Assembly (NCBI GenBank): GCA_030652215.1
Contig: JAUSBC010000042.1
Span: forward strand, 1 to 64,000
Direction: 5' to 3'
DNA length: 64,000 nucleotides
From: Sideroxyarcus sp.
GTDB lineage: Bacteria; Pseudomonadota; Gammaproteobacteria; Burkholderiales; Gallionellaceae
The translations under genes and the position numbers were made by a program. The notes beneath the pieces are model-generated. The model was given only the letters and a program-made list of their open reading frames with translations, was not told where the DNA came from and did no database searches. Positions 11,302-61,594 of the stretch are shown here, one piece after another. Positions within the stretch are counted from its first letter, which is position 1. Each line of letters begins with the position of its first letter.

Positions 11302-11344
11302 AGGGTATCAGTGCTCTGAAAAAAAGGAACCTGTACTTTGGTAC
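11302..11344 (-). promoter_or_regulatory. Putative activator site and -10 of the PEP-CTERM gene
   Basis: The palindrome GTACTTTGGTAC is at 11333-11344. Reading on the minus strand, 25 bp separate it from TACCCT (11302-11307), a TAnnnT -10-like hexamer. The same palindrome-to-(-10) spacing (24-25 bp) occurs at 37977, 55506 and 61583. No good -35 box is present, which fits an activator-dependent promoter. The binding protein is unknown; one of the LuxR-type regulators in the window is a candidate. Confidence 0.55.
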
Positions 11345-11412
11345 TAGGGTGAATTGAATCCGAAGCCAGAATCGGCATCATGACTATTGATGATGCGCCA
11401 CCAATTAGCGGA

Positions 11413-12846
11413 CTATGACGGCACGTTCGCCGTAATAAACGCCTTCAGCTCCGCCAGATCCGCATCCATCACTTCGCAGCGCTGCGGCAAATTCTCGATA
11501 CCTTCCATCGCCGCTGGACGTTCCGGCTGGCGACCGAGCGCTTCCTGAATGGTCTCGGCGAACTTGGCGGGCAAGGCGGTTTCCAGGCAGATCAGCGGCA
11601 GGCTGGGGCGGCGCTGTTCGAGGCCGACTTTCAGGCCGTCGGCGGTGTGCGTGTCTATCATCACGCCATACTCCTGCCAAACTTCTCGGATGGTTTTGAG
11701 TCGGTCCTGGTGCGTGCTCTTGCCGGAGGCGATATCGAACTTCGGCAGCGCGTGCCAGTAGTCGGTACCCTTGATATCAAACGCGCCGCCTGCATCCACC
11801 TTGCTCCAGAACTCGCGCACTTTCGCACCGTCGCGTCCGACCAGATCGAACACGAAACGCTCGAAGTTGGAGGCCTTGCTGATGTCCATCGACGGGCTGC
11901 TGGTCTCGTAAGTGTGGTCAGTGCCGCGAGGACGGTACACGCCGGTGCGGAAGAACTCGTCCAGCACGTCGTTTTCGTTGGTAGCCAGAATCAACTGACC
12001 GATGGGCAACCCCATCATGCGCGCGATGTGCCCGGCGCAGATGTTGCCGAAGTTGCCGGACGGTACCGAGAACGCGACCTGCTCGTCGTTAGATTTGGTC
12101 GCGGCAAAGTAGCCCTTGAAGTAATACACAATCTGAGCCGACACGCGCCCCCAGTTGATGGAGTTGACCGTGCCGATCTTGTGCGCCGCTTTGTAGGCGT
12201 GGTCGTTGGACACGGCTTTCACCAGATCCTGCGCATCGTCGAACATGCCGTTGATGGCGATGTTGAAGATATTGGGGTCTTGCAGCGAATACATTTGCGC
12301 GCGCTGGAAGGCGGACATCTTGCCATTCGGCGACAGCATGAAAACACGGATGCCGCGCTTGCCGCGCATCGCGTATTCGGCGGCAGAGCCGGTGTCGCCG
12401 GAAGTCGCGCCGAGGATATTCAGTTCCTCGTTCTGCTTCGCCAGCGCGTACTCGAACAGGTTGCCGAGCAACTGCATCGCCATGTCCTTGAATGCCAGCG
12501 TCGGGCCGTTTGAGAGTTCCTGGATGAACACGCCCTCGCTCAATTTGCGCAGCGGCGTGATCTGCGTGGCATCGCTGTCGGCGCGGCCATTGCTGTAAAC
12601 CTGCGCGGTGTAGGTCTTGCTGATGATGGCTTTCAGGTCCGCCGCGGGAATGTCGGTGGCGAATTTGGACAGCACGGCGAACGCGAGGTCGGCGTACGAC
12701 AGCGTGCGCCACGCATCCAGCTCGGCACGTGTTACCTGCGGATATTGTTCCGGCAGGTACAGGCCGCCGTCCGGCGCGAGACCACCCAGCAGGATTTCGG
12801 TGAAGGTCTTGGCGGGCGCATTGCCGCGGGTGGAGATGTATTTCAT
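11413..12846 (-). CDS. thrC: Threonine synthase
   Basis: A 477-residue PLP enzyme converting O-phosphohomoserine to threonine. It starts MKYISTRGNAPAKTFTEILL, typical of the bacterial ThrC type 2 group. The PLP-lysine motif is NGPTLAFKDMAMQLLG at about residue 110, and the phosphate-binding ATSGDTGSAAEYAM lies near 148. Length is as expected (about 470). It follows hom and alaA on the same strand, each separated by a palindromic repeat. Confidence 0.96.
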   Translation of the reverse strand: MKYISTRGNAPAKTFTEILLGGLAPDGGLYLPEQYPQVTRAELDAWRTLSYADLAFAVLSKFATDIPAADLKAIISKTYTAQVYSNGRADSDATQITPLRKLSEGVFIQELSNGPTLAFKDMAMQLLGNLFEYALAKQNEELNILGATSGDTGSAAEYAMRGKRGIRVFMLSPNGKMSAFQRAQMYSLQDPNIFNIAINGMFDDAQDLVKAVSNDHAYKAAHKIGTVNSINWGRVSAQIVYYFKGYFAATKSNDEQVAFSVPSGNFGNICAGHIARMMGLPIGQLILATNENDVLDEFFRTGVYRPRGTDHTYETSSPSMDISKASNFERFVFDLVGRDGAKVREFWSKVDAGGAFDIKGTDYWHALPKFDIASGKSTHQDRLKTIREVWQEYGVMIDTHTADGLKVGLEQRRPSLPLICLETALPAKFAETIQEALGRQPERPAAMEGIENLPQRCEVMDADLAELKAFITANVPS

Positions 12847-12864
12847 GCTAGTAATTCCTCAACA

Positions 12865-12946
12865 GTAGGGCGCAATAACCAACGGGCATTGCGCCGCATG
12901 AGCGATCAAACATTCGGTGCAATGCGCTACGCTTATTGCACCCTAC
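12865..12946. repeat. Palindromic element, family C
   Basis: Outer arms GTAGGGCGCAATAA and TTATTGCACCCTAC are inverted, and the inner pair GGGCATTGCGCC / GGTGCAATGCGC is also inverted. A related composite lies at 31970-32104. It sits upstream of thrC, between hom and thrC. Confidence 0.8.
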
Positions 12947-12960
12947 AAATTTCCGAGCGA

Positions 12961-13037
12961 GTAGGTTGGGTGGAGCGTAGCGATACCCAACGTTGACAAT
13001 CCAAGCGATGGGTATCGCTTTGCTCAACCCATCCTAC
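12961..13037. repeat. Palindromic element, family A variant
   Basis: Arms GTAGGTTGGGTGGAGCG and CAACCCATCCTAC are inverted, with an inner CGATACCCAACG / GATGGGTATCG pair. It lies 3 bases after the hom stop codon, directly beside the family C element. Confidence 0.8.
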
Positions 13038-13040
13038 ATA

Positions 13041-14360
13041 TTATTTTCCGAGTTCTTCCAACCGCAGCTTGGTCACCTTGCCTGCCACCACGCCCAACGC
13101 CTCGATCTTCGCAATCGCCGCGTTGATGCGCTTCTCGCGCGTCTGGTGGGTCAGCATGATGAGGTCGGTCTGGTCTTCGCCTTCGCCGGGTTCTTTCTGG
13201 ATCACGGCATCGATGGAGATTTGCTCGTCCGCGAGGATGCGCGTGATATCGGCCAGCACGCCAGGCTTGTCCTGCACATGCAGGCGCAGGTAGTAGCTGG
13301 TGATCACCTCGTCCATCGACAGGATCTTGATGTCGGCCATCGCGTTCGGCTGGAACGCCAGATGCGGCACGCGATTCTGCGGATCGGAAGTCGCCATGCG
13401 CGTCACGTCCACTAGGTCGGCGATCACCGCGCTGGCCGTGGGCTCCGCACCCGCGCCCTTGCCGTAATAAAGGGTTGAGCCGACTGCATCGCCCTGCACC
13501 AGCACGGCATTCATCGCGCCTTCCACATTGGCGATCAGGCGTTTGCTCGGGATCAGTGTGGGATGCACGCGCAATTCCACACCCTCATCCGTGCGCTTGG
13601 TGATGCCCAGCAGCTTGATGCGATAGCCGAGCTGTTCGGCGTACTTGATATCGACCGCATCCAGTTTGGAAATGCCCTCGATAAAGGCTTTGTCGAACTG
13701 CATGGGAATGCCAAACGCCAGAGACGACAGGATGGTGATCTTGTGCGCCGCATCCACACCTTCGATGTCGAAGGTCGGGTCGGCTTCGGCGTAGCCGAGG
13801 CGCTGCGCTTCTTTCAGCACGGTATCGAAGCTCAAGCCCTTGTCGCGCATTTCGGACAGGATGAAATTGGTGGTGCCGTTGATGATGCCCGCGATCCATT
13901 CGATGCGATTGGCGGAAAGGCCTTCGCGCAGTGCCTTGATGATGGGGATACCACCGGCCACGGCCGCCTCGAAGGCAACCATCACACCCTTGTCTTGGGC
14001 GGCCTTGAAAATTTCGTTGCCGTGCACGGCCAGCAGCGCCTTGTTGGCGGTGACTACGTGCTTGCCGTTGGCGATGGCTTTGAGTACCAGTTCTTTGGCC
14101 ACGCCGTAACCGCCGATAAGTTCGATGACGATATCCACTTCCGGATCGGCAACCACCGCGAAGGCGTCGTCCGTTACGCGACAGGCCCCGCCGGTGACTT
14201 TTTTCGCAAGTTCCACGTTCTTGTCCGCTACCACGGTGATGCGAATGGGGCGACCGGCGCGGCGCGTGATTTCTTCCGCGTTGCGCTGCAATACGGTGAA
14301 GGTGCCGCCGCCGACCGTGCCGATACCGAGGAGTCCTACGTTGATGGGTTTGATGCTCAT
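13041..14360 (-). CDS. hom: Homoserine dehydrogenase with C-terminal ACT domain
   Basis: A 439-residue NAD(P)-dependent enzyme reducing aspartate semialdehyde to homoserine. The N-terminus MSIKPINVGLLGIGTVGGG is the Rossmann nucleotide-binding loop. The catalytic core has GGIPIIKALREG and NGTTNFILSEM, with YAEADPTFDIEG near residue 210. The last 85 residues are an ACT domain (LRLHVQDKPGVLADITRIL), which usually senses threonine. The ATG at 14360 was chosen because an upstream in-frame extension comes from the neighbouring palindromic repeat. Confidence 0.96.
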   Translation of the reverse strand: MSIKPINVGLLGIGTVGGGTFTVLQRNAEEITRRAGRPIRITVVADKNVELAKKVTGGACRVTDDAFAVVADPEVDIVIELIGGYGVAKELVLKAIANGKHVVTANKALLAVHGNEIFKAAQDKGVMVAFEAAVAGGIPIIKALREGLSANRIEWIAGIINGTTNFILSEMRDKGLSFDTVLKEAQRLGYAEADPTFDIEGVDAAHKITILSSLAFGIPMQFDKAFIEGISKLDAVDIKYAEQLGYRIKLLGITKRTDEGVELRVHPTLIPSKRLIANVEGAMNAVLVQGDAVGSTLYYGKGAGAEPTASAVIADLVDVTRMATSDPQNRVPHLAFQPNAMADIKILSMDEVITSYYLRLHVQDKPGVLADITRILADEQISIDAVIQKEPGEGEDQTDLIMLTHQTREKRINAAIAKIEALGVVAGKVTKLRLEELGK

Positions 14361-14378
14361 GACTCTCTTTCGCTTATT

Positions 14379-14443
14379 GTAGGGTGGGCACGTTTTTGTG
14401 CCCACCGTTTATCCGCGTGGGCACAAAGACGTGCCCACCCTGC
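14379..14443. repeat. Palindromic repeat between alaA and hom
   Basis: GTAGGGTGGGCACGT and ACGTGCCCACCCTGC form the outer arms, with an inner GTGCCCACC / GCGTGGGCAC pair. It ends 4 bases before the alaA stop codon. Confidence 0.8.
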
Positions 14444-14447
14444 TTGC

Positions 14448-15665
14448 TTAATTCGTGCCGTGCTGCTTGCGATAATGTTCCAGGAAACGGGCGATGCGAG
14501 CGATGGCTTCCGTCAGATCGTCCGCATTGGGCAGGAACACGATGCGCAAATGGTCGGGATGCTTCCAGTTAAAGCCTGTGCCCTGCACCACCAGCACCTT
14601 CTCCGCCTCCAGCAATTCCAGGATGAACTTCTGGTCGTCTTTGATCGGGTACATCTTGGGATCGAGCTTCGGGAACATGTACAAAGCCGCCTTGGGTTTG
14701 ACGCAGGTCACACCGGGAATCGCGGTAAGCAGGTTGTAGGCGAGCTCGCGTTGTTTGTACAGACGACCGCCGGGTGCGACCAGGTCGTTGATGCTCTGGT
14801 AGCCGCCGAGCGCGGTCTGGATGGCGTATTGTCCCGGCACGTTGGAGCACAAGCGCATCGAGGCAAGGATGTTCAGGCCGTCCAGATAGTCCTTCGCGTT
14901 TTTCTTCGCGCCCGAGACAACCATCCAGCCCGAGCGGTAACCGCAGGCACGGTAGTTCTTGGACAGGCCGTTCAAGGTGACGAACAACACATCATCCGCA
15001 AGCGAAGCCATGGAAGTGTGCGTCACGCCGTCGTACAACACCTTGTCGTATATCTCGTCGGCGAAGATGATGAGATTGTGCTCGCGCGCGATCTGGACGA
15101 TCTCTTTCAAAATCTCGTCGGAATACACCGCGCCGGTGGGATTGTTGGGATTGATGACAACAATTGCCCTGGTATTGGGCGTAATCTTGCTGCGCATGTC
15201 CTTGAGATCGGGGTTCCACTCGTTTGCTTCGTCACACAAATAGTGGCGCGGCGTACCGGTGGCCAGCGCAACTGCAGCCGTCCACAACGGATAGTCGGGT
15301 GCGGGCACCAGCACTTCGTCGCCCGGATTGAGCAGGCCCTGCATGCACATGACGATGAGCTCGGACGCACCGTTGCCGATGTAAATATCGTCGATGGTGA
15401 CGCCCTGAATCTTCTTCAACTGGGTGTAGTGCATGATCGCCTTGCGCGCTGCGAACAAGCCCTTGGAATCGGAATAACCGGATGAGTTCGGCAGGTTCAG
15501 GATCACGTCCTTCTGCACCTCTTCCGGCGCGTCGAAGCCGAACGGCGCCAGATTGCCGATGTTCAGCTTGATGATGCGCTGGCCTTCCTCCTCCATCTGC
15601 TTGGAACGCGCCATCACCGGACCTCGGATGTCGTAGCAGACGTTGGCCAGTTTTGAGGATTTCAT
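14448..15665 (-). CDS. alaA: Alanine-synthesising aminotransferase AlaA-like
   Basis: A 405-residue PLP aminotransferase of fold type I, similar along its length to E. coli AlaA, which makes alanine from pyruvate with glutamate. Visible features are SSKLANVCYDIRGPV at the N-terminus, NPNNPTGAVYS, FADEIYDKVLYD and the PLP-lysine in TLNGLSKNYRACGYRSGW. The frame runs 37 codons further upstream to a TTG, but the ATG at 15665 gives the normal family length of 405. The upstream extension is either non-coding or a lineage-specific tail. It leads the alaA-hom-thrC series. Confidence 0.92.
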   Translation of the reverse strand: MKSSKLANVCYDIRGPVMARSKQMEEEGQRIIKLNIGNLAPFGFDAPEEVQKDVILNLPNSSGYSDSKGLFAARKAIMHYTQLKKIQGVTIDDIYIGNGASELIVMCMQGLLNPGDEVLVPAPDYPLWTAAVALATGTPRHYLCDEANEWNPDLKDMRSKITPNTRAIVVINPNNPTGAVYSDEILKEIVQIAREHNLIIFADEIYDKVLYDGVTHTSMASLADDVLFVTLNGLSKNYRACGYRSGWMVVSGAKKNAKDYLDGLNILASMRLCSNVPGQYAIQTALGGYQSINDLVAPGGRLYKQRELAYNLLTAIPGVTCVKPKAALYMFPKLDPKMYPIKDDQKFILELLEAEKVLVVQGTGFNWKHPDHLRIVFLPNADDLTEAIARIARFLEHYRKQHGTN

Positions 15666-15827
15666 CACCGGTTTGATCGCAGGGGTATCTTTTTCGGATT
15701 TCACTTTGAGTGCTTCCCAGTCTGCCCGGCCAGTGCCGATGGTAGAATCATCGACATTAAAGACAGGGCGTTGCAAAGGCGCGATTCTACCGCGCCGCAG
15801 CTATACGCCGCAAATGGAGACCAAGCT

Positions 15828-16196
15828 TTGGCATTGCATCTGAATACAAACACCAACCTGTATTTGTTCACCGGGCACGGCGCGGGATATGTCGCCATCA
15901 ACGGCAGGGAGTTCCGGCAGCCCGTTGCAGTGATGGCCGGACAGGTGCGCACGGACTGGCCTGCCACGGATTTCGCCTCGCTGACTGCGGCGCATTTCGA
16001 CTATTTCCTTGAGTTGAAACCGGATGTTCTGCTGCTGGGCACCGGAACCAAACAGCAATTCGCCCATCCGACCCTGTACAAGAAACTCATTGAGGCACGT
16101 ATCGGCATCGAATTCATGGATACCCCGGCCGCCTGCCGCACCTACAACATTCTGGTCGCCGAGGACCGGCATGTGATTGCGGCCGTGTTGCCATGA
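15828..16196 (+). CDS. Mth938-like domain protein (DUF498)
   Basis: A 122-residue cytoplasmic protein of the Mth938/NDUFAF3 fold: LYLFTGHGAGYVAINGREF, then LKPDVLLLGTGTKQQF and IEFMDTPAACRTYNILVAEDR. The function is not established in bacteria. The frame is open further upstream, but a TTG at 15828 preceded by GGAG (15816-15819) with 8-base spacing begins exactly where family members begin (LALHLNTN). It is divergent from alaA. Confidence 0.8.
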   Translation: MALHLNTNTNLYLFTGHGAGYVAINGREFRQPVAVMAGQVRTDWPATDFASLTAAHFDYFLELKPDVLLLGTGTKQQFAHPTLYKKLIEARIGIEFMDTPAACRTYNILVAEDRHVIAAVLP

Positions 16197-16216
16197 TTGA
16201 GTTCCAACCAGAAATA

Positions 16217-16302
16217 CAAACCCCTCCCAGCCTCCCCTTATCAGGGGAGGAGCTACGATTCCTCCCCTGATATAGGGGAGGTTAGGAGGGGTTGGGGGTT
16301 TA
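16217..16302. repeat. Palindromic repeat, family F (AACCCCTCCCA...TGGGAGGGGTT type)
   Basis: Arms AAACCCCTCCCAGCC and TTAGGAGGGGTTGGGGG enclose CTCCCCTTATCAGGGG / CCCCTGATATAGGGGAG. Related copies are at 62805-62893 and, remarkably, inside mfd at 29448-29560. Confidence 0.8.
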
Positions 16303-16328
16303 GCCTCGAATAAACAACTAGGACAATA

Positions 16329-17246
16329 ATGAGCCACCCACTGCACGCCGTCATCACGCAAACCGAGCAAGTCATCCTGGGCAAACCCCGCCAGATCAGG
16401 CTGGCGCTCACTTGCCTGCTGGCGCGCGGGCATTTGCTGATCGAAGACCTGCCCGGCGTGGGCAAGACCACACTGGCGCATGTGCTGGCGAGAACCCTTG
16501 GCCTGCAGTTCCAGCGCATCCAGTTCACCAGCGACATGCTGCCTGCCGACATCCTGGGCGTTTCCATCTACCAGCGCGACAGCGGCGAGTTCAAGTTCCA
16601 CGCAGGGCCGATCTTCGCGCAGATGATCCTGGCCGACGAAGTCAACCGCGCCACGCCCAAGACGCAAAGCGCGCTGCTGGAAGCAATGGAAGAACAACAG
16701 GTCACCAGCGAAGGCGAAACGCGCCCGCTGCCCGCGCCGTTCTTCGTCATCGCCACGCAAAATCCGACCAACCAGATCGGCACCTTCCCGCTGCCGGAGT
16801 CTCAGCTCGACCGTTTCCTGATGCGCATCCAGCTGGGTTATCCGGACGCACAGGCCGAGCGCGGCCTGCTTTCGGGCGTGGACAGGCGCGACCTCATTGC
16901 CGGACTCACGCCGCAGATGAATACCGCCGAACTGACCGATCTGCAGCTGCAAGTCCGGCAGGTATTCGTCTCCCCCGCGCTGCTCGACTATGTGCAAGCC
17001 ATCCTGCGCCACAGCCGTGAATCGGCACGCTACGTACACGGCCTTTCACCGCGCGCCGGCCTGTCGCTGATCGCCGCCGCCCGCGCCTGGGCCCTGCTCG
17101 ACGGTCGCAATGCGGTCATCCCCGAAGATATCCAGGCCGTATTGCCCGGCGTCGCCAGCCACCGCCTGCAAAGCGTGCAGGATGTGCAAGCCTCGGATGG
17201 CGACAGGCTGGCCCGAGAACTGATCGAAGCGGTTGCCATTCCCTGA
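16329..17246 (+). CDS. MoxR family AAA ATPase
   Basis: A 305-residue cytoplasmic ATPase. Walker A is LIEDLPGVGKTTLAHVLA near residue 45; Walker B is MILADEVNRATPKTQSALLE near 105; sensor 1 is FFVIATQNPTNQIGTF near 142. MoxR proteins act as chaperones for metal insertion or assembly. The next two genes (DUF58 and a transglutaminase) form the standard MoxR-DUF58-TgpA operon, whose cellular role is not well defined. Confidence 0.94.
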   Translation: MSHPLHAVITQTEQVILGKPRQIRLALTCLLARGHLLIEDLPGVGKTTLAHVLARTLGLQFQRIQFTSDMLPADILGVSIYQRDSGEFKFHAGPIFAQMILADEVNRATPKTQSALLEAMEEQQVTSEGETRPLPAPFFVIATQNPTNQIGTFPLPESQLDRFLMRIQLGYPDAQAERGLLSGVDRRDLIAGLTPQMNTAELTDLQLQVRQVFVSPALLDYVQAILRHSRESARYVHGLSPRAGLSLIAAARAWALLDGRNAVIPEDIQAVLPGVASHRLQSVQDVQASDGDRLARELIEAVAIP

Positions 17247-17247
17247 T

Positions 17248-20132: not shown

Positions 20133-20162
20133 TCCGCGCCACTTTTCAGATATTCCCAAATC

Positions 20163-20603: not shown

Positions 20604-20686
20604 TATCGTACCCCGCTAATCACGAAACATACCTGCGCTTTGCCCAACCTACAGGAATGTATGACTGGGCGGACCATACGCGCTAG
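20582..20686 (+). repeat. Duplicated 3' end of queD around a half REP element
   Basis: The last 22 bases of queD (20582-20603, CTGGGCGGACCACACGCGC + TAG) recur at 20665-20686 with one mismatch. Between them lies one arm of the family A palindrome (CGCTTTGCCCAACCTAC, 20637-20653). This suggests the repeat was inserted or partly deleted together with a short target duplication. Confidence 0.75.
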
Positions 20687-20689
20687 CCG

Positions 20690-21658: not shown

Positions 21659-21731
21659 ATACGACCGTTCAAGGTTTATGAATCATTATAAAGCCGAAAC
21701 ACCGTTCAAGCGGCTTGGTCAGCCGCACCGC

Positions 21732-26277: not shown

Positions 26278-26291
26278 GTGCGCTGACCTGC

Positions 26292-27454: not shown

Positions 27455-27467
27455 ATTGCTTGCCTCC

Positions 27468-37976: not shown

Positions 37977-38019
37977 GTACGTTAGTACAGTATCTCCTGT
38001 CGCAGGACGCTGTTATGTT
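37977..38019 (+). promoter_or_regulatory. Putative activator site and -10 of the second PEP-CTERM gene
   Basis: CTGTAC-GTTA-GTACAG (core 37977-37988) is a palindrome with 6-bp arms. After 25 bp comes TATGTT (38014-38019), a plausible -10, giving a start near 38026 and a leader of about 118 bases. Spacing matches the sites at 11333, 55506 and 61583. It lies in the 369-base gap 37775-38143, where I see nothing else. Confidence 0.6.
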
Positions 38020-38143: not shown

Positions 38144-39556
38144 ATGAACAATACAAGTATTGTTGCACTACTAATAGGGCTAATTCTGTCGGGCGCCCCC
38201 ACCTATGCACAGAGCTACCAGATTGCACCAAATCCAAATCCTTCTGGATCTACCATCTCAGTAACCGGATTTGGTGCGGAAAATCTCTCAAGTTTTGAGA
38301 ACGATGGTATTTTGGTTATTGAAGGCACTCTGAGCAATTCCGGTATCCTGAATAGCAACGCTGGCGGTTCGCTGACAATCAGCGGAAGCGGCGCCCTGGA
38401 TAACTACGGCGCACTGAACAATGCAGGAAACTTCCAGTTTTCCGTGGATGCGCACACCGGCACCTTGAATAACTACAACACCTTCACCAATTCCAGCACA
38501 GACAACGGCAACTACCTCGGCATCCTGAACAACTTCAGCACATTCAACAACTCCGGGGTCTTGTATACAGTGTTCGCGCATAACACCGGCGACGCGGCCA
38601 ACAACACCGGCGCGACCTTGGGGACAGTTAATCTGCGCAACTCCGGCACCCTGAACAATTCCGGTACTGTAGTAACAGATGCCGTAGGGACAATAACCAA
38701 TACCGGCACCTTGAACAATGCAGGCATTCTTAATAACACCCCGTCCGGCCAGTTGGATAATTCCGGTATCTTGAACAACTCAGGCACCTTGTACACCGGT
38801 CAATCACTGAACAATTCAGGAACTCTAAACAACACCAGCAATTTGCGTTCTGCCAGACAAACCAACAATTCAGGTAGCCTCAACAACTTCGGCATCCTGG
38901 AAATTTATTACCCCGAAGACACCTTGAACAACACCGGCACGCTGAACAACACCGGCACAATGCATAATGATGGAACGATTGCCGGAACAGGCACGTATAT
39001 CCAGGCCGCAGGGCAAACCGTTAACAACGGAAGCCTCAGCCAGGCTTCCATCCAATTCGACGGCGGCGGTTTAAGCGGAACCGGCACGATCACGGGCGAT
39101 GTAAGCATAGGTAGCGGTGCAAGTGTAAATCCTGGAAATTCACCGGGAACAATGACCATCAATGGGAACTTTACCAGCGAAGGAACGCTTGCATTCGAGA
39201 TCGCGGGCCTAGGTTCGGGGTTATACGACTTCCTGGATATCGATGGCAACGCCAGTTTTTCCGGCGGCAACATCCAGTTTGATTTCATTGACGGCTTTAA
39301 CGCCGCAGCCGGAAACTACTGGGATTTTATGTCTGCCGACACCATCTCCGGATGGGACACACTCAGTTTCACATTTAACGGCTTAGGTGCGGAACTGGGA
39401 TGGAGCTTCGCGCATCTTGATACCGGCGAAGAACGTCTGTGGATCACTTCAAATCCGGTAACGCCTGTACCCGAGCCCGGGTCTTACGCCATGCTGATGA
39501 CTGGTTTGGGTTTGTTTGGTCTTGCGTCGCGTCGCAAGAAAAAATACGTCGCATAA
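38144..39556 (+). CDS. PEP-CTERM protein with Asn/Gly-rich short repeats
   Basis: A 470-residue surface protein. The signal peptide is MNNTSIVALLIGLILSG...TYA. Residues about 60-300 are many imperfect repeats of 6-8 residues such as NNSGTLNN and NNTGTLNN, predicted to form a beta-solenoid-like stack. The domain after it has NPGNSPGTMTINGNFTSEG, also common in autotransporter and PEP-CTERM proteins. The C-terminus is a complete PEP-CTERM signal: PVPEPGSYAMLMTGLGLFG then ASRRKKK. The ATG at 38144 has GGGGAG upstream. An unknown exosortase elsewhere should process it. Confidence 0.9.
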   Translation: MNNTSIVALLIGLILSGAPTYAQSYQIAPNPNPSGSTISVTGFGAENLSSFENDGILVIEGTLSNSGILNSNAGGSLTISGSGALDNYGALNNAGNFQFSVDAHTGTLNNYNTFTNSSTDNGNYLGILNNFSTFNNSGVLYTVFAHNTGDAANNTGATLGTVNLRNSGTLNNSGTVVTDAVGTITNTGTLNNAGILNNTPSGQLDNSGILNNSGTLYTGQSLNNSGTLNNTSNLRSARQTNNSGSLNNFGILEIYYPEDTLNNTGTLNNTGTMHNDGTIAGTGTYIQAAGQTVNNGSLSQASIQFDGGGLSGTGTITGDVSIGSGASVNPGNSPGTMTINGNFTSEGTLAFEIAGLGSGLYDFLDIDGNASFSGGNIQFDFIDGFNAAAGNYWDFMSADTISGWDTLSFTFNGLGAELGWSFAHLDTGEERLWITSNPVTPVPEPGSYAMLMTGLGLFGLASRRKKKYVA

Positions 39557-49832: not shown

Positions 49833-49861
49833 TCCCGAATAATCCAACAGGCCCCAAAGCC

Positions 49862-49984: not shown

Positions 49985-49996
49985 CCGCCGACGCAC

Positions 49997-54549: not shown

Positions 54550-54627
54550 CACGTTGTTGGATGTAGCGCGAGTTGCCGTTGTCGATTGTGTTGAAAATAT
54601 GAAATCCAAGCTACTACCGGATCAATC

Positions 54628-54708
54628 GTAGGTTGGGCAAAGCGCAGCGTGCTCAACACCAATAAGCACCGCTCATTTGTTGGGCACGCTGCGCTTTGCC
54701 CAACCTAC
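54628..54708. repeat. Family A palindromic element downstream of nrdJ
   Basis: GTAGGTTGGGCAAAGCGCAG and CTGCGCTTTGCCCAACCTAC are near-perfect inverted arms, with GTGCTCAACA / TGTTGGGCAC inside. In the remainder of the gap (54709-54904), ATAACCAGCAACTTGCCCGC at 54825 resembles the start of the 62-nt hairpin element. Nothing else is seen there. Confidence 0.85.
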
Positions 54709-54904
54709 GCGGGAGCAACTACGTTGGCTATTGTTATATTGCTCCAGCACGGTGAAGTTTTGACTCAGCCGGACAAAACGGATGTCGTGAGTCTCAGGTA
54801 GGGGGCGCCTGCGCACCCTTCGACATAACCAGCAACTTGCCCGCTTGCGGGTGCAGGGCGAACGGACTTAATCGGCGTTCCCGTGGAAGACCGCTGCTGC
54901 TTCC

Positions 54905-55402
54905 CTAATTCAGAATCCGGTCCGTGATATCACCGAGCATTTTGCGCGGAACCCACGCTTCGCCGCGGCCTACCACTTGCACTGCTTTTGAGATATGCAG
55001 CCCGGCAGTCTCGTGTTTCAGGTAGCCACGCGCGCCGATCTCCAATGCCTGAATAATCTGGCTATCGTGAATCGTGTCGTCGGCCAGCAGCACAATATAC
55101 GACTCCGGACAGACGCACCGCAGGGACAGCAATAAAGCGTGATCCTCATCCGCGTTCATATCCAGGCTGACCAACGTCACGCTTGGATTAAGCCGCTTGA
55201 TTCTGGCCACCTCGTTTTCGCATGCCGAAACATCGGTGCGCTGCTCGAAACGACGATTCGCGAACGTATGGTCATTCCTGTCCCCAATGTTCGGTCCCGC
55301 ATTTGAAAGCAGCGTGATGCCATCCTCGCCATGCAGCATGCGTTCATAACCCGCACGGCGATTGCGATCAACGTCTGCAACAGCAACGGTTACAGTTTGC
55401 AT
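54905..55402 (-). CDS. Orphan receiver-domain protein, copy 1
   Basis: A 165-residue protein with a CheY-like fold and no output domain. MQTVTVAVADVDRNRRAGYE is the first strand with its acidic residues, Asp81 in TLVSLDMNADED is the likely phosphoacceptor, and GARGYLKHE is the final Lys region. An extra segment of about 28 residues precedes the Asp compared with the LuxR-type neighbour. The C-terminus VGRGEAWVPRKMLGDI looks like a NarL-type linker cut before the helix-turn-helix; copy 2 at 60984 ends at the same point, so the end is conserved rather than a recent break. It probably acts as a phosphate sink or partner of the LuxR-type protein upstream. Confidence 0.8.
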   Translation of the reverse strand: MQTVTVAVADVDRNRRAGYERMLHGEDGITLLSNAGPNIGDRNDHTFANRRFEQRTDVSACENEVARIKRLNPSVTLVSLDMNADEDHALLLSLRCVCPESYIVLLADDTIHDSQIIQALEIGARGYLKHETAGLHISKAVQVVGRGEAWVPRKMLGDITDRILN

Positions 55403-55475
55403 AAAAATTTGCCCTCCTCCGTACTGCCATTATTTTCGCTTTCATGTCATTGGATGATTCCAAGCATGCCAGTCG

Positions 55476-55517
55476 ATTGTATTCACTTCAACAACTAGAA
55501 CAACTGTACTTTAGTAC
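55476..55517 (-). promoter_or_regulatory. Activator site and -10 of receiver copy 1
   Basis: The palindrome TGTACTTTAGTACA (core 55506-55517) lies 24 bp from TACAAT (55476-55481) on the minus strand. It would be centred near -42, the place of a class II activator site, and the -35 (TTGTTC) is weak. Copy 2 at 61553-61594 has the same layout, with the palindrome changed symmetrically to TGCACTTTAGTGCA. Confidence 0.65.
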
Positions 55518-55539
55518 ATGATTTTGCAGTCAAACCTTA

Positions 55540-55710
55540 GGAAGGTCTGATTAAGTCCGTCACACCGGCGAATAACCAGCGACTTGGCTGGCGTTGTTTG
55601 CCAGCTTAGTCGAATGGCTAGTAGTTCTATCAGGCCGGTGTCCAGCTCATTGAAAGTACTGGATTCCGGCCTTCGCCGGAATGACGAATGAGGACTTAAT
55701 CAGACCTTCC
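55540..55710. mobile_element. Nested repeat: outer 19-bp inverted repeat, family D, and 62-nt hairpin
   Basis: GGAAGGTCTGATTAAGTCC (55540-55558) and its exact inverse GGACTTAATCAGACCTTCC (55692-55710) bound the element. Inside are family D arms (CACACCGGCG ... CCGGTGTCCAG and GGATTCCGGCCTTCGCCGG). Inside those, at 55572-55633, is the 62-nt hairpin element. The nesting implies three successive insertions. Confidence 0.8.
55572..55633. repeat. 62-nt hairpin element, copy 2
   Basis: GACTTGGCTGGC-gttgttt-GCCAGCTTAGTC forms the same 12-bp stem with a T:T mismatch as copy 1 at 45649. Here C:G pairs are replaced by G:C and T:A pairs and A:T by G:T. Both copies are exactly 62 nt, beginning ATAACCA and ending ATCAG. 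Confidence 0.75.
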
Positions 55711-55761
55711 CTTATGGATTTGCTGCAAAAAAAAACCATCAACTTCGAATTGAAAGGCCAA

Positions 55762-56484
55762 TCACAGACTGGGCTGACTGGCAATTGCCGAACGATTCAC
55801 TTCATGCTTACCCATTAGTGGCACGCTCGAAGTCTTGCGGACTGTGGCTCTTTCGTCCGCCGACAGAACCAAAGCCAGGTTAAGGCGATCCGTAACACCC
55901 AGCTTGTTGAACACTTCGGTCAAGTGAGCTTTTACCGTGCGCTCGGTAATTCCGCATGCCTTGGCGATCAGCTTGTTGCTTTCGCCGTTCTTCACGCGCA
56001 CGGCAATGTCGTATTCGCGCTGCGTCAGCTTGTTAAGCATGCCCAAAGAGTCGCGATAGACTTTGTTCTTGGCCGTGGCCCTGCCCAGCTCATCTATCAG
56101 CCGGCAAGTCAGCGTGCGGCGTATCCACAATTCCCCCATGTGCACAGCCATCACCACCTGCTTGAGCAGTTTCGGGTCTGCATCGCTGCGGCAGCATCCC
56201 CTTACTCCGGCCTTCAATAATTGCCACTCCGTCTCTTCGGATATGTCGCTGCCGATGACGATTATTTTGGTGGCCTTGCTTATACCGCGCAGGCTGGCAA
56301 CATCAGCCGAGCCCAACAAATCATAGTCCAGCAACATAACCTTGGGCTTGATCTGAGTAACAACATCCCCGAGCGTGTCCAACTTGTCCATTACGAGAGT
56401 AGTGCTCACCAAGCTGTTCAACTCGCGCGTCCACGCGGCGAGTCTGTCATGGCAAGAGCTGGCAATCATCAAGTTGTTTGTCAT
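55762..56484 (-). CDS. LuxR/NarL-family response regulator, copy 1
   Basis: A 240-residue regulator. The receiver domain has Asp53 in VMLLDYDLLG as likely phosphoacceptor, but the usual Lys near GVRGCCRSDADP is replaced, so phosphorylation may be atypical. The LuxR-type helix-turn-helix is at about 150-210: LTQREYDIAVRVKNGESNKL and ITERTVKAHLTEVFNKLGV. It has a sigma-54 promoter (56576-56593). It lies upstream of and parallel to the orphan receiver gene. Nearly the same protein is encoded at 61758. Confidence 0.9.
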   Translation of the reverse strand: MTNNLMIASSCHDRLAAWTRELNSLVSTTLVMDKLDTLGDVVTQIKPKVMLLDYDLLGSADVASLRGISKATKIIVIGSDISEETEWQLLKAGVRGCCRSDADPKLLKQVVMAVHMGELWIRRTLTCRLIDELGRATAKNKVYRDSLGMLNKLTQREYDIAVRVKNGESNKLIAKACGITERTVKAHLTEVFNKLGVTDRLNLALVLSADERATVRKTSSVPLMGKHEVNRSAIASQPSL

Positions 56485-56575
56485 AATGTTCTCTGGTTTT
56501 TTTTAAGTTATTCGTTAACACCGAGTCATTCATAGTTTGAAGCCCTTGAGCACTTCACCACCACACCAGCACGGG

Positions 56576-56593
56576 TAAGCAATAGTTGTGCCA
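56576..56593 (-). promoter_or_regulatory. Sigma-54 promoter of LuxR copy 1
   Basis: On the minus strand TGGCAC-AACTA-TTGCTTA matches the -24/-12 consensus TGGCAC-N5-TTGCW exactly (GC-to-GC spacing correct). The start would be near 56567, giving a leader of about 83 bases. The identical sequence is at 62568-62585 in copy 2. Confidence 0.85.
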
Positions 56594-56690
56594 CTATTGG
56601 CATTCAACGACTTTATTCATACAGTGTTAAGGTTTAGCGCATTACAGGAAATTTAATACAGCGGAAGCAGCCCCACCTTCAGAAAAAAAA

Positions 56691-56728
56691 TGACGTGAAT
56701 TTGACGCTTACTTGACGCAAGAGTGACC
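56691..56728 (-). promoter_or_regulatory. 11-bp-phased TGACG iterons, probable enhancer of LuxR copy 1
   Basis: TGACG at 56691, 56702 and 56713 and TGACC at 56724 are spaced exactly 11 bp (one helical turn), so all lie on one DNA face. They are about 124-161 bp upstream of the predicted sigma-54 start, the usual position of an enhancer-binding-protein site. Copy 2 has the same layout at 62681-62718. Confidence 0.7.
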
Positions 56729-56874
56729 AATTTGCGACTCGTAATGGAGCGCTACAAAAGTAAGCGGGGACGTGCCTGGATAACTACGCATGCCTTGATT
56801 TTACATTTAAACAGTCAGCCTCATGGCGATGCTTTCTTTGAAAAAAAGCAACAACTCAAGAAGCATCACAAGTC

Positions 56875-57069
56875 GTCGACTGCCAGCGCCAGGCATCGGG
56901 CACATCTCTTCTTGACGCCTGCTTCAGCCATGGCTTCGAACAGCACCAGACTACCGTGAATATTGTTGTCGTAATAGCGTAACGGCTGAGCCACAGATTC
57001 GCCCACCGCCTTGAGGCCGGCATAGTGAATCACAGCGTCAAGTTGATAATCTGCAAACAATGTCCGCAT
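56875..57069 (-). pseudogene. galE: galE remnant with internal deletion
   Basis: Two pieces of the intact galE at 62992 are joined here. The last 11 or so codons (56875-56908, TCGACTGCCAGCGCCAGGC) match the gene's C-terminal end. They are fused directly to the stretch encoding [20 protein letters not shown]...EAMAEAGVK (56910-57069). About 600 bp between them and the first 62 or so codons are missing, so no epimerase can be made. A 67-codon frame remains by chance. It marks the edge of the duplicated block. Confidence 0.88.
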
Positions 57070-57294
57070 CCCGTACTAAATCAGAGCAATGCCACAAGAG
57101 CGATTCTTCAGAAAGGGGCCGTCGCAGCTTATGAGGTATTTTAGTTTCGGGTTATGATGCGCCGTAGTGCAGTAACTCATTGAATTGCTGACGTAGGTAA
57201 TTGCGACTTATGCGTCAACCCACGGCCTCTTTTTTCCACAGTCATTCTGGTGTGGTATTAATAGCCGAAGCACTTCGCGATAAAGGACAATTAG

Positions 57295-58350
57295 TTGAAC
57301 CATAACAGGTACGCTTTCTTAGATGGCATTAGAGGTATGGCTGCCATATTTGTACTTACGCGCCATACAGGCAACTACTGGAATCATAGCTTTTACAGAA
57401 GTTATTTGGCTGTAGATCTATTTTTTATATTGAGCGGGTTCGTTATCGCTTATGCATATGACGAGAAGATCAAAAACAACATCATTACTTTTCGTCAATT
57501 TGTATTAATCCGTCTAATCAGACTTTACCCTGTGTTTCTTTTGTCGTTACTTATTTGTTCTCTGCTGCTGGTTGGATCACTACTAACACATCAAAATAGT
57601 TTTGCCAGTTTTTCAGAGGCTTTGAGTGTTATAGCGCTTACTGCATTATTCCTTCCTTCGCATATGGCAAGTAACAATAGTCTTTTTCCAATCAATGGCC
57701 CTTACTGGAGCCTATTTTTTGAACTTGTTGCGAATTTTATATACGCCGCAATAAGGCCAATTTTGAATAATTCTGTTTTAGCAGCAATTATTGTTCTATT
57801 TGGATTATTAGTGGCCAGCGCTTCTCACAACCACGGCAATCTCGACATTGGTTTTCTATGGGGAAGTGAATCAGTTGTCGGCGGATTCTCCCGTTCAATG
57901 TTTGGAATTTTTACGGGGTTGTTTCTTTATAGGCATCAAGCCAAGTTCGGGCACTTTTTTTCCAGGCCCAATAGCGCATGGTTAGCCTTCTTCTCTATCG
58001 CAGTTATTTTGGCATCGCCAAGTGCGGTAAGATTTAATTGGCTAATAGATGTGATTTCCGTAGGTGTTGTTTTTCCAATAGCTGTACTTTGCGCATCGCA
58101 AGGTAAAAGCACCAGACTACAAAGCACGCTAGTTTTGCTTGGTTCGGCTAGTTATCCGATTTATGTTCTACATGTTCCTTTTGTTGAAATTTTATCCAGT
58201 ACAATCGCTGGAAAAGTTGAAGCTATTGCGCCAGTTAGTGGCATTATTTTGGTTACTTTCCTCATAGCACTTTCTGTTTGGATTGAAAAAAACTATGACA
58301 TTCCGTTTCGTCGTAAGCTCAGTTCCTACATTTTTCAAACTCGACCATAG
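57295..58350 (+). CDS. Acyltransferase 3 family membrane protein, copy A
   Basis: A 351-residue protein with about ten membrane segments. RYAFLDGIRGMAAIFVLTRH contains the family motif with catalytic His, followed by LAVDLFFILSGFVIAYAYDE. The family O-acylates (usually O-acetylates) sugars on the membrane. The start is a TTG at 57295 with AAAGGA upstream. The sequence is AT-rich compared with its neighbours, as is common for polysaccharide-modification genes gained by transfer. It lies downstream of the galE remnant. Confidence 0.88.
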   Translation: MNHNRYAFLDGIRGMAAIFVLTRHTGNYWNHSFYRSYLAVDLFFILSGFVIAYAYDEKIKNNIITFRQFVLIRLIRLYPVFLLSLLICSLLLVGSLLTHQNSFASFSEALSVIALTALFLPSHMASNNSLFPINGPYWSLFFELVANFIYAAIRPILNNSVLAAIIVLFGLLVASASHNHGNLDIGFLWGSESVVGGFSRSMFGIFTGLFLYRHQAKFGHFFSRPNSAWLAFFSIAVILASPSAVRFNWLIDVISVGVVFPIAVLCASQGKSTRLQSTLVLLGSASYPIYVLHVPFVEILSSTIAGKVEAIAPVSGIILVTFLIALSVWIEKNYDIPFRRKLSSYIFQTRP

Positions 58351-58444
58351 ACCTATTGAGTCTATACCACTGTGGCTTGGTATAACTTATCGGCTTACAA
58401 GCAATAGCACATCAACAATGCTGCATTAACCACCGCTGCAATAC

Positions 58445-59521
58445 ATGATAAACACTGACACGACTGATGTGACTATTGATCCCATCATTCCAACAAACAA
58501 GTTTGATGTAAAACGGGAAAGAACGCTTTGGGTAGACTATGCCAAGGCGATAGGAATAATCCTGGTCGTCTACGCACATGTGGCACGCGGGATATTCAAT
58601 GCCGGCCTTAATCTTGATCAAGGCTCATACAAGCTAATAGACAGCGTGATCTACACCTTTCACATGCCGCTGTTTTTCTTCTTGTCCGGAGTATTTTTGC
58701 TGGCATCGATGGCGAAGCGGAGTTCAATGAGTTTGCTTCGCACCAAGGTCGACACCATTTTTTATCCGTACGTAGTCTGGTCGCTGCTTCAGGGTTTGAT
58801 CGAAGTGGCAATGTCTCTGTACGTGAACGGCCAACCAACATTGAGCGAGGTGTTTTCGTTTGCCTGGTCCCCAAGAGCTCAATTCTGGTTTCTATATGTG
58901 CTCTTCTTTGTTTTTGCATTCGCGATGCTGGTTTTTCGCCGTTCAAGCTTAATGTGGAGCTCCGGCATTTTTATTGGATCGTTAGTTCTGTATTTTTTCG
59001 GCAGTCAGTTATCGGATCTATACCTCTTCAATACATTGAGTCACTATTTTGTGTACTTTGCCGCGGGCGTAATATCGTCTTTCCTGCTCTTGAAACTTAA
59101 CAGCATCGAAACGAGATGGATGATCCTGTTTCTTGCGCTGTTCATTTTTTCGCAATGGGTGTACCACTATGAGTTGGGACTGCGCTACAACAGTAATGCG
59201 GCATTCGAGCAACTGCTTCTCGGCTTGATTGGCATATGCTTTGTGGTGTTGCTTGCACAATGGCTCAGCAGATTTAATCTGCGATGGCTAACGTTTCTTG
59301 GCCGGCATTCAATGACGATTTATCTGGTGCATATCCTTACCGGAAGCGGCTGCAGGATTATCTTGCAGAAAGGGTTCGGGGTTACCGATGTTGGCGTCCA
59401 TTTGGTAGTTGGCACTTTGGGCGGCCTGCTATTGCCCCTCGTGTTTTACTTTGGCTGCATGCGCTTTGGTTTGGGTGCGTTGTTTAGCCCGCCAAGGGCA
59501 TTGGCTGTTGGCAAGCCTTAA
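58445..59521 (+). CDS. Acyltransferase 3 family membrane protein, copy B (Fucose4NAc-transferase-like)
   Basis: A 358-residue membrane protein with ten or so segments. RTLWVDYAKAIGIILVVYAH holds the conserved Asp-x3-(K/G) start and the His, then FHMPLFFFLSGVFL. The pattern is of the acyltransferase 3 group that acylates surface sugars. It has an N-terminal 25-residue hydrophilic tail. It follows copy A by 94 bases on the same strand. Confidence 0.88.
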   Translation: MINTDTTDVTIDPIIPTNKFDVKRERTLWVDYAKAIGIILVVYAHVARGIFNAGLNLDQGSYKLIDSVIYTFHMPLFFFLSGVFLLASMAKRSSMSLLRTKVDTIFYPYVVWSLLQGLIEVAMSLYVNGQPTLSEVFSFAWSPRAQFWFLYVLFFVFAFAMLVFRRSSLMWSSGIFIGSLVLYFFGSQLSDLYLFNTLSHYFVYFAAGVISSFLLLKLNSIETRWMILFLALFIFSQWVYHYELGLRYNSNAAFEQLLLGLIGICFVVLLAQWLSRFNLRWLTFLGRHSMTIYLVHILTGSGCRIILQKGFGVTDVGVHLVVGTLGGLLLPLVFYFGCMRFGLGALFSPPRALAVGKP

Positions 59522-59575
59522 CATCGCCCCGGTAAAAATATTGCCTCGGATGAGGCCTTTGAATAATTCTGCGAT

Positions 59576-60754
59576 TTATCGTGTAGATATTTGGCTAGGC
59601 AAAGGTGCCAACCTCTTTGCAAGTCTATGTCCGACAGATATTAGCGGTTTTTCAATTAGGTACAGACTGAGCGATGCACAAGCGAATGCAAGAATTATAT
59701 TAACAGGAAGACTTTGTAGCGGACTTAGATAGGGAACACGGACCTCATTCCAAACCAGGAAAAGCTGCTGCCAAAGGTAGAGACTGTAAGAAATCCTCCC
59801 TACCCATCGGAATACGGTGCTTTCTAAAACCCGACCTGGAAAATTGGTACTACTTATAAGGGTACCCAGGATAATAAGTGGTATGACAATGGCTTTTACA
59901 GTAAGCAATGCAAAAGCCATCTTCCAGCCAAGCACATGCAATGCAATTAATGTAGCCATGCCAAACGCCAGCAAGACAAGGACTGGCCAAACAGCAGGGA
60001 TGGAGAGCAACCTTCGAAGGCGAAGCTTCCAAACCGGGTCGCTATAAAGTAATGCAACAAGCACGCCGCAAAGAATGCTATCAGCTTGAATATCTGTTCT
60101 TCCCCAGAATACCGCAGGTGTTGAGCCGGTAAGTTGAAATTTGAAATCCACCGCACGCCACAAAGCCAATAGTAAAACCCCTGCAACAGCGAAAATGACG
60201 CGGCGACTGTTGTTCGTGAGCGTGAGAAATGCAAGCGGCCAAATGAAATAGAAATGTTCTTCCACGGCCAATGACCAGAAGTGCCCCAGATACCATGAAC
60301 CTTCTGCAGTGGAATAATTGGCGAAAAAAAGAAGTGTGCTGAGCCACCGCCCAAAGCTAACCTGAATAACTCCACTCAAACTTAATAGCGCAATCGCCAA
60401 GAGGAACACCAAAGATGCCGGCAGTATCCGAAAGGCACGCCTGATGTAAAACGACTTAAGTGAGATGCTGCCCCGTTGCGCCTCATCCGCCACAAGTCGC
60501 GTAGTAATTAGAAAGCCACTTAAACCGAAAAAGATTTGTACGCCGACAAGTCCAAAGAGTTTTAGGAAATCAAAAATGGCATTTCCCACATCCGGCATCA
60601 GCGCATTTTGGATCGAGTCAGATGAGTGCGCAATAATCACCAGGGCGATTGCAATCGTTCTCCAACCATCCAGTGTCGGGAGGTAAGTACCGTCCCGCCC
60701 AGAACTAACGAGACGAGACGCACCCATTTGAGAGCAGTCTTCTTTCAATTTCAT
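59576..60754 (-). CDS. Acyltransferase 3 family membrane protein, copy C (OafA-like)
   Basis: A 392-residue protein. The family start TYLPTLDGWRTIAIALVIIA and the ensuing HSSDSIQNA carry the catalytic His, followed by VGVQIFFGLSGFLITTRLVA and SFYIRRAFRILPA, characteristic of OafA/YrhL. The ATG at 60754 is chosen over longer in-frame starts, which give a basic tail without homology. It is convergent with copy B. The acyl group and the target sugar are unknown; cell-surface or exopolysaccharide O-acetylation is most likely. Confidence 0.9.
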   Translation of the reverse strand: MKLKEDCSQMGASRLVSSGRDGTYLPTLDGWRTIAIALVIIAHSSDSIQNALMPDVGNAIFDFLKLFGLVGVQIFFGLSGFLITTRLVADEAQRGSISLKSFYIRRAFRILPASLVFLLAIALLSLSGVIQVSFGRWLSTLLFFANYSTAEGSWYLGHFWSLAVEEHFYFIWPLAFLTLTNNSRRVIFAVAGVLLLALWRAVDFKFQLTGSTPAVFWGRTDIQADSILCGVLVALLYSDPVWKLRLRRLLSIPAVWPVLVLLAFGMATLIALHVLGWKMAFALLTVKAIVIPLIILGTLISSTNFPGRVLESTVFRWVGRISYSLYLWQQLFLVWNEVRVPYLSPLQSLPVNIILAFACASLSLYLIEKPLISVGHRLAKRLAPLPSQISTR

Positions 60755-60861
60755 CAGGTATTTTGGGCGTTTTCGAGGCTTATAAATGTAGAGAGTATTG
60801 CGGGTATGTTTTTGATTCCGCGCGCACCTTAACCCGAAAGCTGCGCACTTGTCCAATCAAG

Positions 60862-60955
60862 AACCCTCTCCCGCCGGAAGAGGGGTGGGGTGAGGGATGA
60901 CTCGTTGAATTCCCATCCTCATCCCGGCCCTCCCCCAGGGGGGGGAGGGAGGAAA
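60862..60955. repeat. Palindromic repeat (CCCTCTCCC / GGGGGAGGG type)
   Basis: ACCCTCTCCCGCCGG... and ...CCCCCAGGGGGGGGAGGGAGG form an imperfect inverted pair with GGGGTGAGGGATGA / TCATCCTCATCCC inside. It lies between the third acyltransferase and the second receiver gene. Confidence 0.65.
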
Positions 60956-60983
60956 GCAAACTTTAATCAGCGCTTCCTAATTC

Positions 60984-61481
60984 CTAATTCAAAATCCGAT
61001 CCATTATGCTTCCCAGCATTTTGTTTGGAACCCACGATTCGCCGCGGCCGACTACTTGCACGGCTCTTGAAAGGTAGTCCTCGACAGCATCATTTTCCAG
61101 ATAGCCCTGCGCTCCGATCTCCAGGGCTTGAATGATTTTGTTTTCATTCACGGCGTCATCGGCCAACAATACAATCCGCGACGCCGGGCACATACTTCGC
61201 AGCGACAGAAACAAAGCCAAGTCCTCGTCGGCACACATATCCAGATTTACCAGCGTGACAGCAGGCCTGAGACGCCGGATTCTGGCAACTTCGTTCTCAA
61301 ATGAAGAAACCTCTGCCCGTTGTCCAAACCGACGACTCGCGAACGTATGGTCGTTTCCACCCTCATCATCCGGCCCTGCATTCGAAAGCACAGTAATGCC
61401 GTTCTCGCCATACAAGAGGCGTTCAAAGCCCTCACGGCGAACGCGATCAATACCTGCAACGGCTACGGTCACAGTTTGCAT
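60984..61481 (-). CDS. Orphan receiver-domain protein, copy 2
   Basis: A 165-residue paralog of the protein at 54905, equal in length and ending in the same DRILN. MQTVTVAVAGIDRVRREGFE has lost one N-terminal acidic residue (AD to AG), so phosphorylation chemistry may differ. The likely phosphoacceptor is Asp81 in LVNLDMCADEDLALFLSLRS. It lacks a DNA-binding domain. It is transcribed after the LuxR-type gene at 61758 but has its own promoter-like region. Confidence 0.8.
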   Translation of the reverse strand: MQTVTVAVAGIDRVRREGFERLLYGENGITVLSNAGPDDEGGNDHTFASRRFGQRAEVSSFENEVARIRRLRPAVTLVNLDMCADEDLALFLSLRSMCPASRIVLLADDAVNENKIIQALEIGAQGYLENDAVEDYLSRAVQVVGRGESWVPNKMLGSIMDRILN

Positions 61482-61552
61482 ATTTGACTCTCCTCGCTAC
61501 TACTATTATTTTTCGCCAGCACGTCATTGGATAAATCCACGCGGGCCAGTCG

Positions 61553-61594
61553 ATTGTATTCAATTCAACAACAAGAACTACTGCACTTTAGTGC
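61553..61594 (-). promoter_or_regulatory. Activator site and -10 of receiver copy 2
   Basis: TGCACTTTAGTGCA (core 61583-61594) is a perfect palindrome 24 bp from TACAAT (61553-61558). Compared with copy 1, both arms changed T to C and A to G symmetrically, so the dyad is preserved although the bases differ. Confidence 0.65.

Follow-up and report, generated by a model that had tools for sequence, protein, structure and literature searches.

Which regulator, if any, unites genes that share little beyond a short palindrome in front of them? The question is raised by a 64,000-nucleotide stretch of DNA from Sideroxyarcus sp. (contig JAUSBC010000042.1, assembly GCA_030652215.1, positions 1 to 64,000; hereafter the window), in which a mirror-image box of the form GTAC-N4-GTAC (at one site a symmetric variant of it) stands before two genes for PEP-CTERM proteins and two genes for stand-alone receiver-like proteins. 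An initial annotation of the sequence had placed four such sites at a fixed distance from −10-like hexamers and had read them as operators of a regulon under a NarL/LuxR-type protein, with the two LuxR-type genes of the window as candidates. All four sites are indeed present, and their hexamers follow after 25 (TACCCT), 25 (TATGTT), 24 and 24 bp (TACAAT in both cases), the first of them being weak. The sequence comparisons described below lead us to assign a probability of about 0.8 to the following reading: a PEP-CTERM regulon would be under class II activation by an orphan regulator of the NarL/LuxR type whose receiver domain is atypical.

The Box Precedes All PEP-CTERM Genes Found in the Genome

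Within the window, the strict form GTAC-N4-GTAC occurs three times as compared to 0.10 occurrences expected from shuffled sequence (0 of 100 shuffles reached three); the relaxed form GYAC-N4-GTRC is not above chance there (6 seen vs 3.98 expected). With an 18-bp matrix trained on 11 sites of the own genome, the window's four among them, the four boxes score 18.6–22.9 and the runner-up scores 11.1. The genome as a whole (3.64 Mb, 128 contigs, 90% complete) holds eight PEP-CTERM genes as judged by PF07589, which are spread over seven contigs, and the box precedes all eight: leave-one-out matrix scores range from 13.0 to 23.5, and the box lies 80–163 bp upstream of the first possible start codon (for the gene at 38144, of its ATG). 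Among 690 control segments, the matrix score has its 99% quantile at 10.5 and its maximum at 13.9. The two PEP-CTERM genes from which the initial annotation had started both match PF07589, but the set they belong to is larger than proposed: It comprises 11 sites, eight before PEP-CTERM genes, two before receiver genes and one before a gene for a UDP-sugar dehydrogenase on the same contig as the window. By eye, the PEP-CTERM target genes are alike in little but their sorting signal, and their flanks differ.

The symmetrised matrix consensus ACTGTACTTAAGTACAGG fits a dyad of the type CTG-N10-CAG, single sites differing from it in the outer letters; two of the eight PEP-CTERM boxes (on contigs C44 and C79) have GTCC in one half-site. 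A second box is found 16 bp from the weakest box of the genome (contig C3), and paired boxes with this separation occur in three PEP-CTERM promoters altogether, the other two being located in the relatives G004 (C41:101147) and G030 (C12:262620).

The bare motif GTAC-N4-GTAC had to be rejected as a specific signal, as only 7 of its 21 genome sites belong to the set and 14 lie outside; open frames were checked at 16 of the 21, and one site, C125:12643, falls within an open reading frame of 1525 amino acids. The exact sequence GTACNTTRGTAC occurs at seven places, six of which are set members, the seventh being this site on C125. Specificity resides in the extended site, which we described by a model of box plus −10 hexamer (R1) trained on the eight PEP-CTERM, two receiver and one dehydrogenase sites. 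At E ≤ 10, with 150 of 194 first-look candidates scored, R1 yields 12 matches in the own genome, namely the 11 sites of the set and one cytochrome-c-like open reading frame (E 0.24), which shows that little else in this genome resembles the 11 sites. The genome scan proposed by the initial annotation favours its reading: the extended site is confined to the target classes in 11 of 12 matches here and in 14 of 14 matches in relatives.

The Same Box Recurs in Related Genomes

The 14 matches in relatives stem from a scan of 60 genomes with R1 under stricter filters and with scoring limited to 94 candidates per genome. They fall in five of the 60 genomes, all five of the same genus, and comprise ten sites before PEP-CTERM genes, three between an orthologue of the window's LuxR genes and a receiver gene, and one before an orthologue of the UDP-sugar dehydrogenase; among these 60 genomes, no R1 match lies outside the three gene classes. 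Of the 28 PEP-CTERM genes found in seven relatives from the genus, 24 were examined, and the matrix gives a score of at least 13.5 before 21 of these; the 24 do not include the PEP-CTERM row of G034 (another genus, score 3.8). Across 15 upstream regions of PEP-CTERM genes in other genera, the box score peaks at 8.8. The order LuxR, box, receiver is kept in G004, G010 and G030, and in the more distant member G023 a PEP-CTERM gene comes next after LuxR, with the box in between. In G012, the LuxR gene adjoins a gene for an XrtA-type ATPase-like protein (286 bits, under the cut-off of 324.5), and two boxed PEP-CTERM genes lie within 3 kb of it; the gene that precedes LuxR in G023 looks, by eye, like the same ATPase-like gene. 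We are almost certain that the box is a real regulatory element of these genes.

One LuxR-Type Family Follows the Distribution of the Box

As to the protein that binds the box, we compared the 17 GerE-type genes of the own genome with four box-bearing relatives (G004, G010, G023, G030) and seven relatives free of PEP-CTERM genes and boxes. The comparison lacks six listed places (three in G004, one each in G010, G028 and G000), and G012 and G051 entered it by their LuxR-like gene alone. The window LuxR family, which consists of the two window genes and a third paralogue at C39:56527, is the only one of the 17 compared with orthologues in all four box-bearing relatives (46–80% identity), and nothing above 35% is found in the seven box-free ones. 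Across 34 genomes of the genus, the family occurs in six of the eight with PEP-CTERM genes and in none of the 26 without (Fisher 2e-5, with a weak partial match in G014 uncounted); the two PEP-CTERM genomes that lack it are 62% and 64% complete. The proposal of a regulon under a NarL/LuxR-type protein is thus supported, and the window LuxR family is, judging by this distribution, probably what binds the box.

Both window proteins score above the GerE cut-off of 23.5 bits (Table 1), and the helix-turn-helix residues ITERTVKAHLT are invariant across seven aligned family members. The N-terminal half departs from a canonical phosphorylated response regulator: Neither LuxR has a PF00072 match at E ≤ 0.01, and by eye there is no N-terminal acidic pair and the lysine is replaced by arginine or a different residue. 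D53, which aligns to the phospho-acceptor of NarL, is invariant. An invariant W-I-R-R after the receiver may mark a protein that senses a second messenger as its signal rather than a phosphorylated regulator. The predicted structure combines a receiver with a helix-turn-helix domain and has NarL as its best PDB match; at a mean predicted local distance difference test score (pLDDT) of 62.8, it suggests a NarL-like fold with moderate confidence. In both pairs, the receiver-like gene is located directly downstream of its LuxR-type gene. For receiver-like protein 1, no DNA-binding domain and no Pfam match at E ≤ 0.01 were found, and the structure model of the stand-alone receiver (mean pLDDT 50.5) is too poor for use. 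No box precedes the window LuxR genes (best scores 4.9 and 3.3), which are therefore probably not under their own control. The C39 paralogue adjoins a pair of genes that look like a PAS kinase and a FixJ-like regulator.

It is fairly unlikely, in our estimation, that the box is regulatory and bound by another protein, be it a LuxR responding to acyl-homoserine lactones in quorum sensing, a different GerE protein or a member of a different family. The consensus does resemble the lux box, the own genome holds a single autoinducer-binding LuxR (C108:48274; PF03472, 101.9 bits), a sensor kinase and a receiver-GerE regulator form a pair about 3 kb from the PEP-CTERM gene on C79, and the regulator comparison was confined to the GerE family. 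The distributions of these two proteins, however, do not follow the box: The best identities of the C108 protein in the four box-bearing relatives are 28–39%, its top match (58%) being in the box-free G020, and quorum sensing through this protein as the conserved regulator was rejected since no match there exceeds 39%. For the C79 regulator, a close match (89%) exists in just one of the box-bearing relatives, G030; among the 11 relatives compared, its further reciprocal matches are in the box-free G020 (73%), G017 (52%) and G028 (42%). LuxI has no match in the own genome, which is a weak test as the control matched in no genome either.

Spacing and Proposed Mechanism

The fixed spacing that the initial annotation had noted in the window holds in other genomes. 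A −10-like hexamer over threshold lies at +24/25 in 20 of all 36 sites, that is in 9 of 11 own sites and 11 of 25 sites in relatives; when the downstream DNA is shuffled, 2000 trials average 1.7 and reach at most 7 for all 36 sites, and they average 1.24 and reach at most 6 for the 25 sites in relatives. On the opposite side of the box, there is no comparable −10 peak, and a good −35 element is not seen at the sites by eye. The position of a class II activator is known from the luxI promoter, where the dyad is centred near −42.5. With the usual offset, the dyad would fall near this same position, provided that the hexamers are true −10 elements.

We thus propose the following course of events. 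A dimer of the orphan NarL/LuxR-type protein, encoded by one of the two window genes (55762–56484, 61758–62480) or by the third paralogue on C39, would bind the dyad, whose centre lies about 30 bp before the start of the −10 hexamer and hence at about −42.5, so that the bound dimer would abut or overlap the −35 region and recruit RNA polymerase as a class II activator. As the mirror-image box stands at a fixed place before all eight PEP-CTERM genes, one LuxR-type regulator probably switches all of them on. Together with them, the UDP-sugar dehydrogenase gene and the receiver-like gene directly downstream of LuxR would be switched on, the product of the latter probably acting as a feedback modulator.

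That the bound protein represses appears unlikely to us: A dimer on a box overlapping −35 would block the polymerase, position alone cannot separate activation from repression, and the receiver gene beside LuxR could belong to a negative loop; the fixed 24–25 bp in 20 of 36 sites and the lack of a good −35 element by eye, on the other hand, are what contact between an activator and the polymerase needs, and the LuxR genes themselves have no box.

Several observations weigh against activation by the LuxR family through this box. With regard to the sites, the weakest own one (13.0, on C3) falls inside the control tail because it scores under the control maximum of 13.9, as does the weakest in relatives (13.5); the orientation of the box relative to the gene is not constant and its outer letters are variable. 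The R1 scan of the own genome is circular, the same 11 sites having trained the model. The counts in relatives are not fully independent, because some of the genes look like orthologues of own ones, and the box is missing before three of the 24 PEP-CTERM genes there (two at G004:C31 and one at G023:C1:1048449). With regard to the hexamers, two of 11 own sites miss the −10 threshold used for counting (TCAAAT on C1 and TACCCT at window box 11333), as do 14 of 25 in relatives, and the dehydrogenase site is counted through TAAACT at +25 while TATAAA at +23 is the likelier element. With regard to the regulator, the distribution comparison covered GerE-type proteins only, and co-distribution could partly reflect linkage, the LuxR gene being situated in a polysaccharide locus. 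In G014, which has no PEP-CTERM genes, a weak partial match resembling LuxR raises the Fisher value to 1.4e-4 if counted, and two genomes show no LuxR match and yet a box: G029 (64% complete) and, by matrix (15.5), G018 (62% complete). Finally, the second LuxR copy of G004 (contig C20) has no box nearby (best 6.7), and neither a box nor a PEP-CTERM gene is found near the own C39 paralogue.

Comparison with Known Systems

The sigma-54 system of PrsK and PrsR is the closest parallel in terms of targets. According to Haft et al., sigma-54 motifs precede 99 of 167 proteobacterial PEP-CTERM genes, a sigma-54 site is reported in every PEP-CTERM proteobacterium of a 13-species set, and more regulators and DNA motifs are said in 2006 to be still to be discovered (PMC1569441); dependence on RpoN was later shown for one PEP-CTERM gene of Aquincola (PMC9850573). 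In the PrsK/PrsR system as in the present one, a common upstream site unites scattered PEP-CTERM genes, and the regulator usually lies near polysaccharide genes. The architecture differs: In the former (PMC1569441), a 17-nt motif lies about 63 nt before a −24/−12 sigma-54 promoter served by an NtrC-type activator, whereas here a 12–18 bp dyad is followed by a −10-like hexamer 24–25 bp on, with a NarL/LuxR-type candidate as binder.

Given how widespread the sigma-54 motifs are (99 of 167 genes) and that matches to 9 of the 12 letters of the −24/−12 pattern occur in two of eight own regions, the PEP-CTERM genes could be under PrsR and sigma-54, with the box as an accessory. We regard this as very improbable: With at most 22 first-look candidates scored in each genome, not one of the 34 from the genus has PrsR (TIGR02915) above the cut-off, and the own −24/−12 matches are not above controls, although the pattern separates poorly even in PrsR genomes. 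Over all 61 genomes, PrsR exceeds its cut-off in five, each of which belongs to another genus and carries PEP-CTERM genes. In this, the genus differs from the proteobacteria that Haft et al. described.

Negligible, finally, is the chance that the sites are accidental palindromes or repeats copied by a mobile element or gene duplication, as the receiver pair within a duplicated cassette, the 14 of 21 bare-motif sites outside the set and a small inverted-repeat element next to site 55506 might suggest, since the targets share little beyond the sorting signal by eye, their flanks are not the same, and other genomes show this spacing and target class again.

A GerE-domain regulator tied to an exosortase system is already represented by EpsA (TIGR03020, XrtB/PEP-CTERM-associated). 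An EpsA identity of the window LuxRs was rejected, as their scores of 37.1 and 33.1 bits fall short of the cut-off of 170 and the similarity covers the helix-turn-helix only; in the own genome, the EpsA model gives 17 matches, none over cut-off. True EpsA genes (198.7 and 198.2 bits) occur in two relatives within about 10 kb of the box-less PEP-CTERM genes on G004:C31 and G023:C1, which therefore probably belong to another exosortase system; these EpsA genes are flanked by ankyrin-repeat-like and thioredoxin-fold-like genes (by eye).

The lux box is a CTG-N10-CAG dyad at −42.5 bound by a LuxR activator of the GerE fold. Dyad type, predicted position and fold of the putative activator are alike in the present case (for the term lux box, see PMC4427320), but the candidate has a receiver-like domain in place of an autoinducer-binding one, PF03472 being absent from both window LuxRs. 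Its nearest named model (65.1 bits) and nearest structure is NarL; VpsT (3kln) is among its PDB matches, and the CsgD model reaches 49 bits. For NarL and CsgD alike, the cut-off of 250 bits is far out of reach. VpsT and CsgD control matrix genes.

Within the genus, the LuxR circuit would do the job that PrsK, PrsR and sigma-54 do in some other PEP-CTERM bacteria. Taken further, the genus might use a separate GerE regulator for each exosortase system: an orphan NarL/VpsT-like protein would serve the main PEP-CTERM regulon through a lux-like class II box, with feedback by the box-controlled receiver, and EpsA would serve the XrtB-type genes, the LuxR circuit having replaced sigma-54 and PrsK/PrsR. 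We offer this joint reading as a tentative idea only, and hold it slightly more loosely because half of the PEP-CTERM genomes outside the genus (5 of 10: G034, G040, G041, G046, G060) have neither PrsR over its cut-off nor a match to our model.

Literature searches confined to open-licence PubMed Central turned up no title or abstract beginning that describes LuxR-type or lux-box control of PEP-CTERM genes. The two papers cited here on the control of these genes describe sigma-54/PrsR (PMC1569441) or RpoN (PMC9850573), and the route proposed here is unlike these. What the present case adds is a motif together with its predicted targets in one genome (90% complete) and a few candidate regulator genes; it predicts co-production of a set of surface proteins and a sugar precursor for the polysaccharide thought to be their partner.

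Features of the Window

Table 1. Boxes, hexamers and genes of the window; box sequences are given in gene orientation where stated.
Feature	Position	Strand	Details
PEP-CTERM gene a	10486..11160	−	C-terminal sorting signal; PF07589 39.8 bits, cut-off 20.7; genome match C30:10510
−10-like hexamer TACCCT (weak)	11302..11307	−	25 bp past box of PEP-CTERM gene a
Operator box, PEP-CTERM gene a	11333..11344	−	Gene orientation GTACCAAAGTAC; leave-one-out matrix score 19.4
Operator box, PEP-CTERM gene b	37977..37988	+	GTACGTTAGTAC; leave-one-out score 20.0
−10-like hexamer TATGTT	38014..38019	+	25 bp past box of PEP-CTERM gene b
PEP-CTERM gene b	38144..39556	+	PF07589 32.7 bits; many repeats by eye
Receiver-like protein 1, stand-alone	54905..55402	−	165 amino acids; weak NarL-type receiver similarity
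−10-like hexamer TACAAT	55476..55481	−	24 bp past box 55506
Operator box between LuxR gene 1 and receiver gene 1	55506..55517	−	GTACTAAAGTAC; position kept in G004, G010, G030
LuxR/NarL-type regulator 1, candidate box binder	55762..56484	−	GerE 56.6 bits; NarL 1a04 E 6.6e-12; candidate by distribution
Receiver-like protein 2, stand-alone	60984..61481	−	PF00072 17.2 bits, under 30.2 cut-off; 68% identical to protein 1
−10-like hexamer TACAAT	61553..61558	−	24 bp past box 61583
Operator box between LuxR gene 2 and receiver gene 2	61583..61594	−	GCACTAAAGTGC, symmetric variant
LuxR/NarL-type regulator 2, second candidate binder	61758..62480	−	GerE 52.3 bits; 76% identical to regulator 1

The cassette of LuxR and receiver genes is duplicated (54905–56484 and 60984–62480), the copies lying 6 kb apart. 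Within the stretch 56876–57070, a remnant of 161 nt at 56910–57070 shares 88% identity with 63648–63808, which is part of a galE-like gene; cassette pair and remnant suggest the copying of a larger block. The stretch 55540–55710, which adjoins box 55506, is bounded by perfect 19-nt inverted repeats (GGAAGGTCTGATTAAGTCC) and resembles a small non-coding mobile element. At about 61621–61725 there is a related stretch that runs in the opposite orientation.

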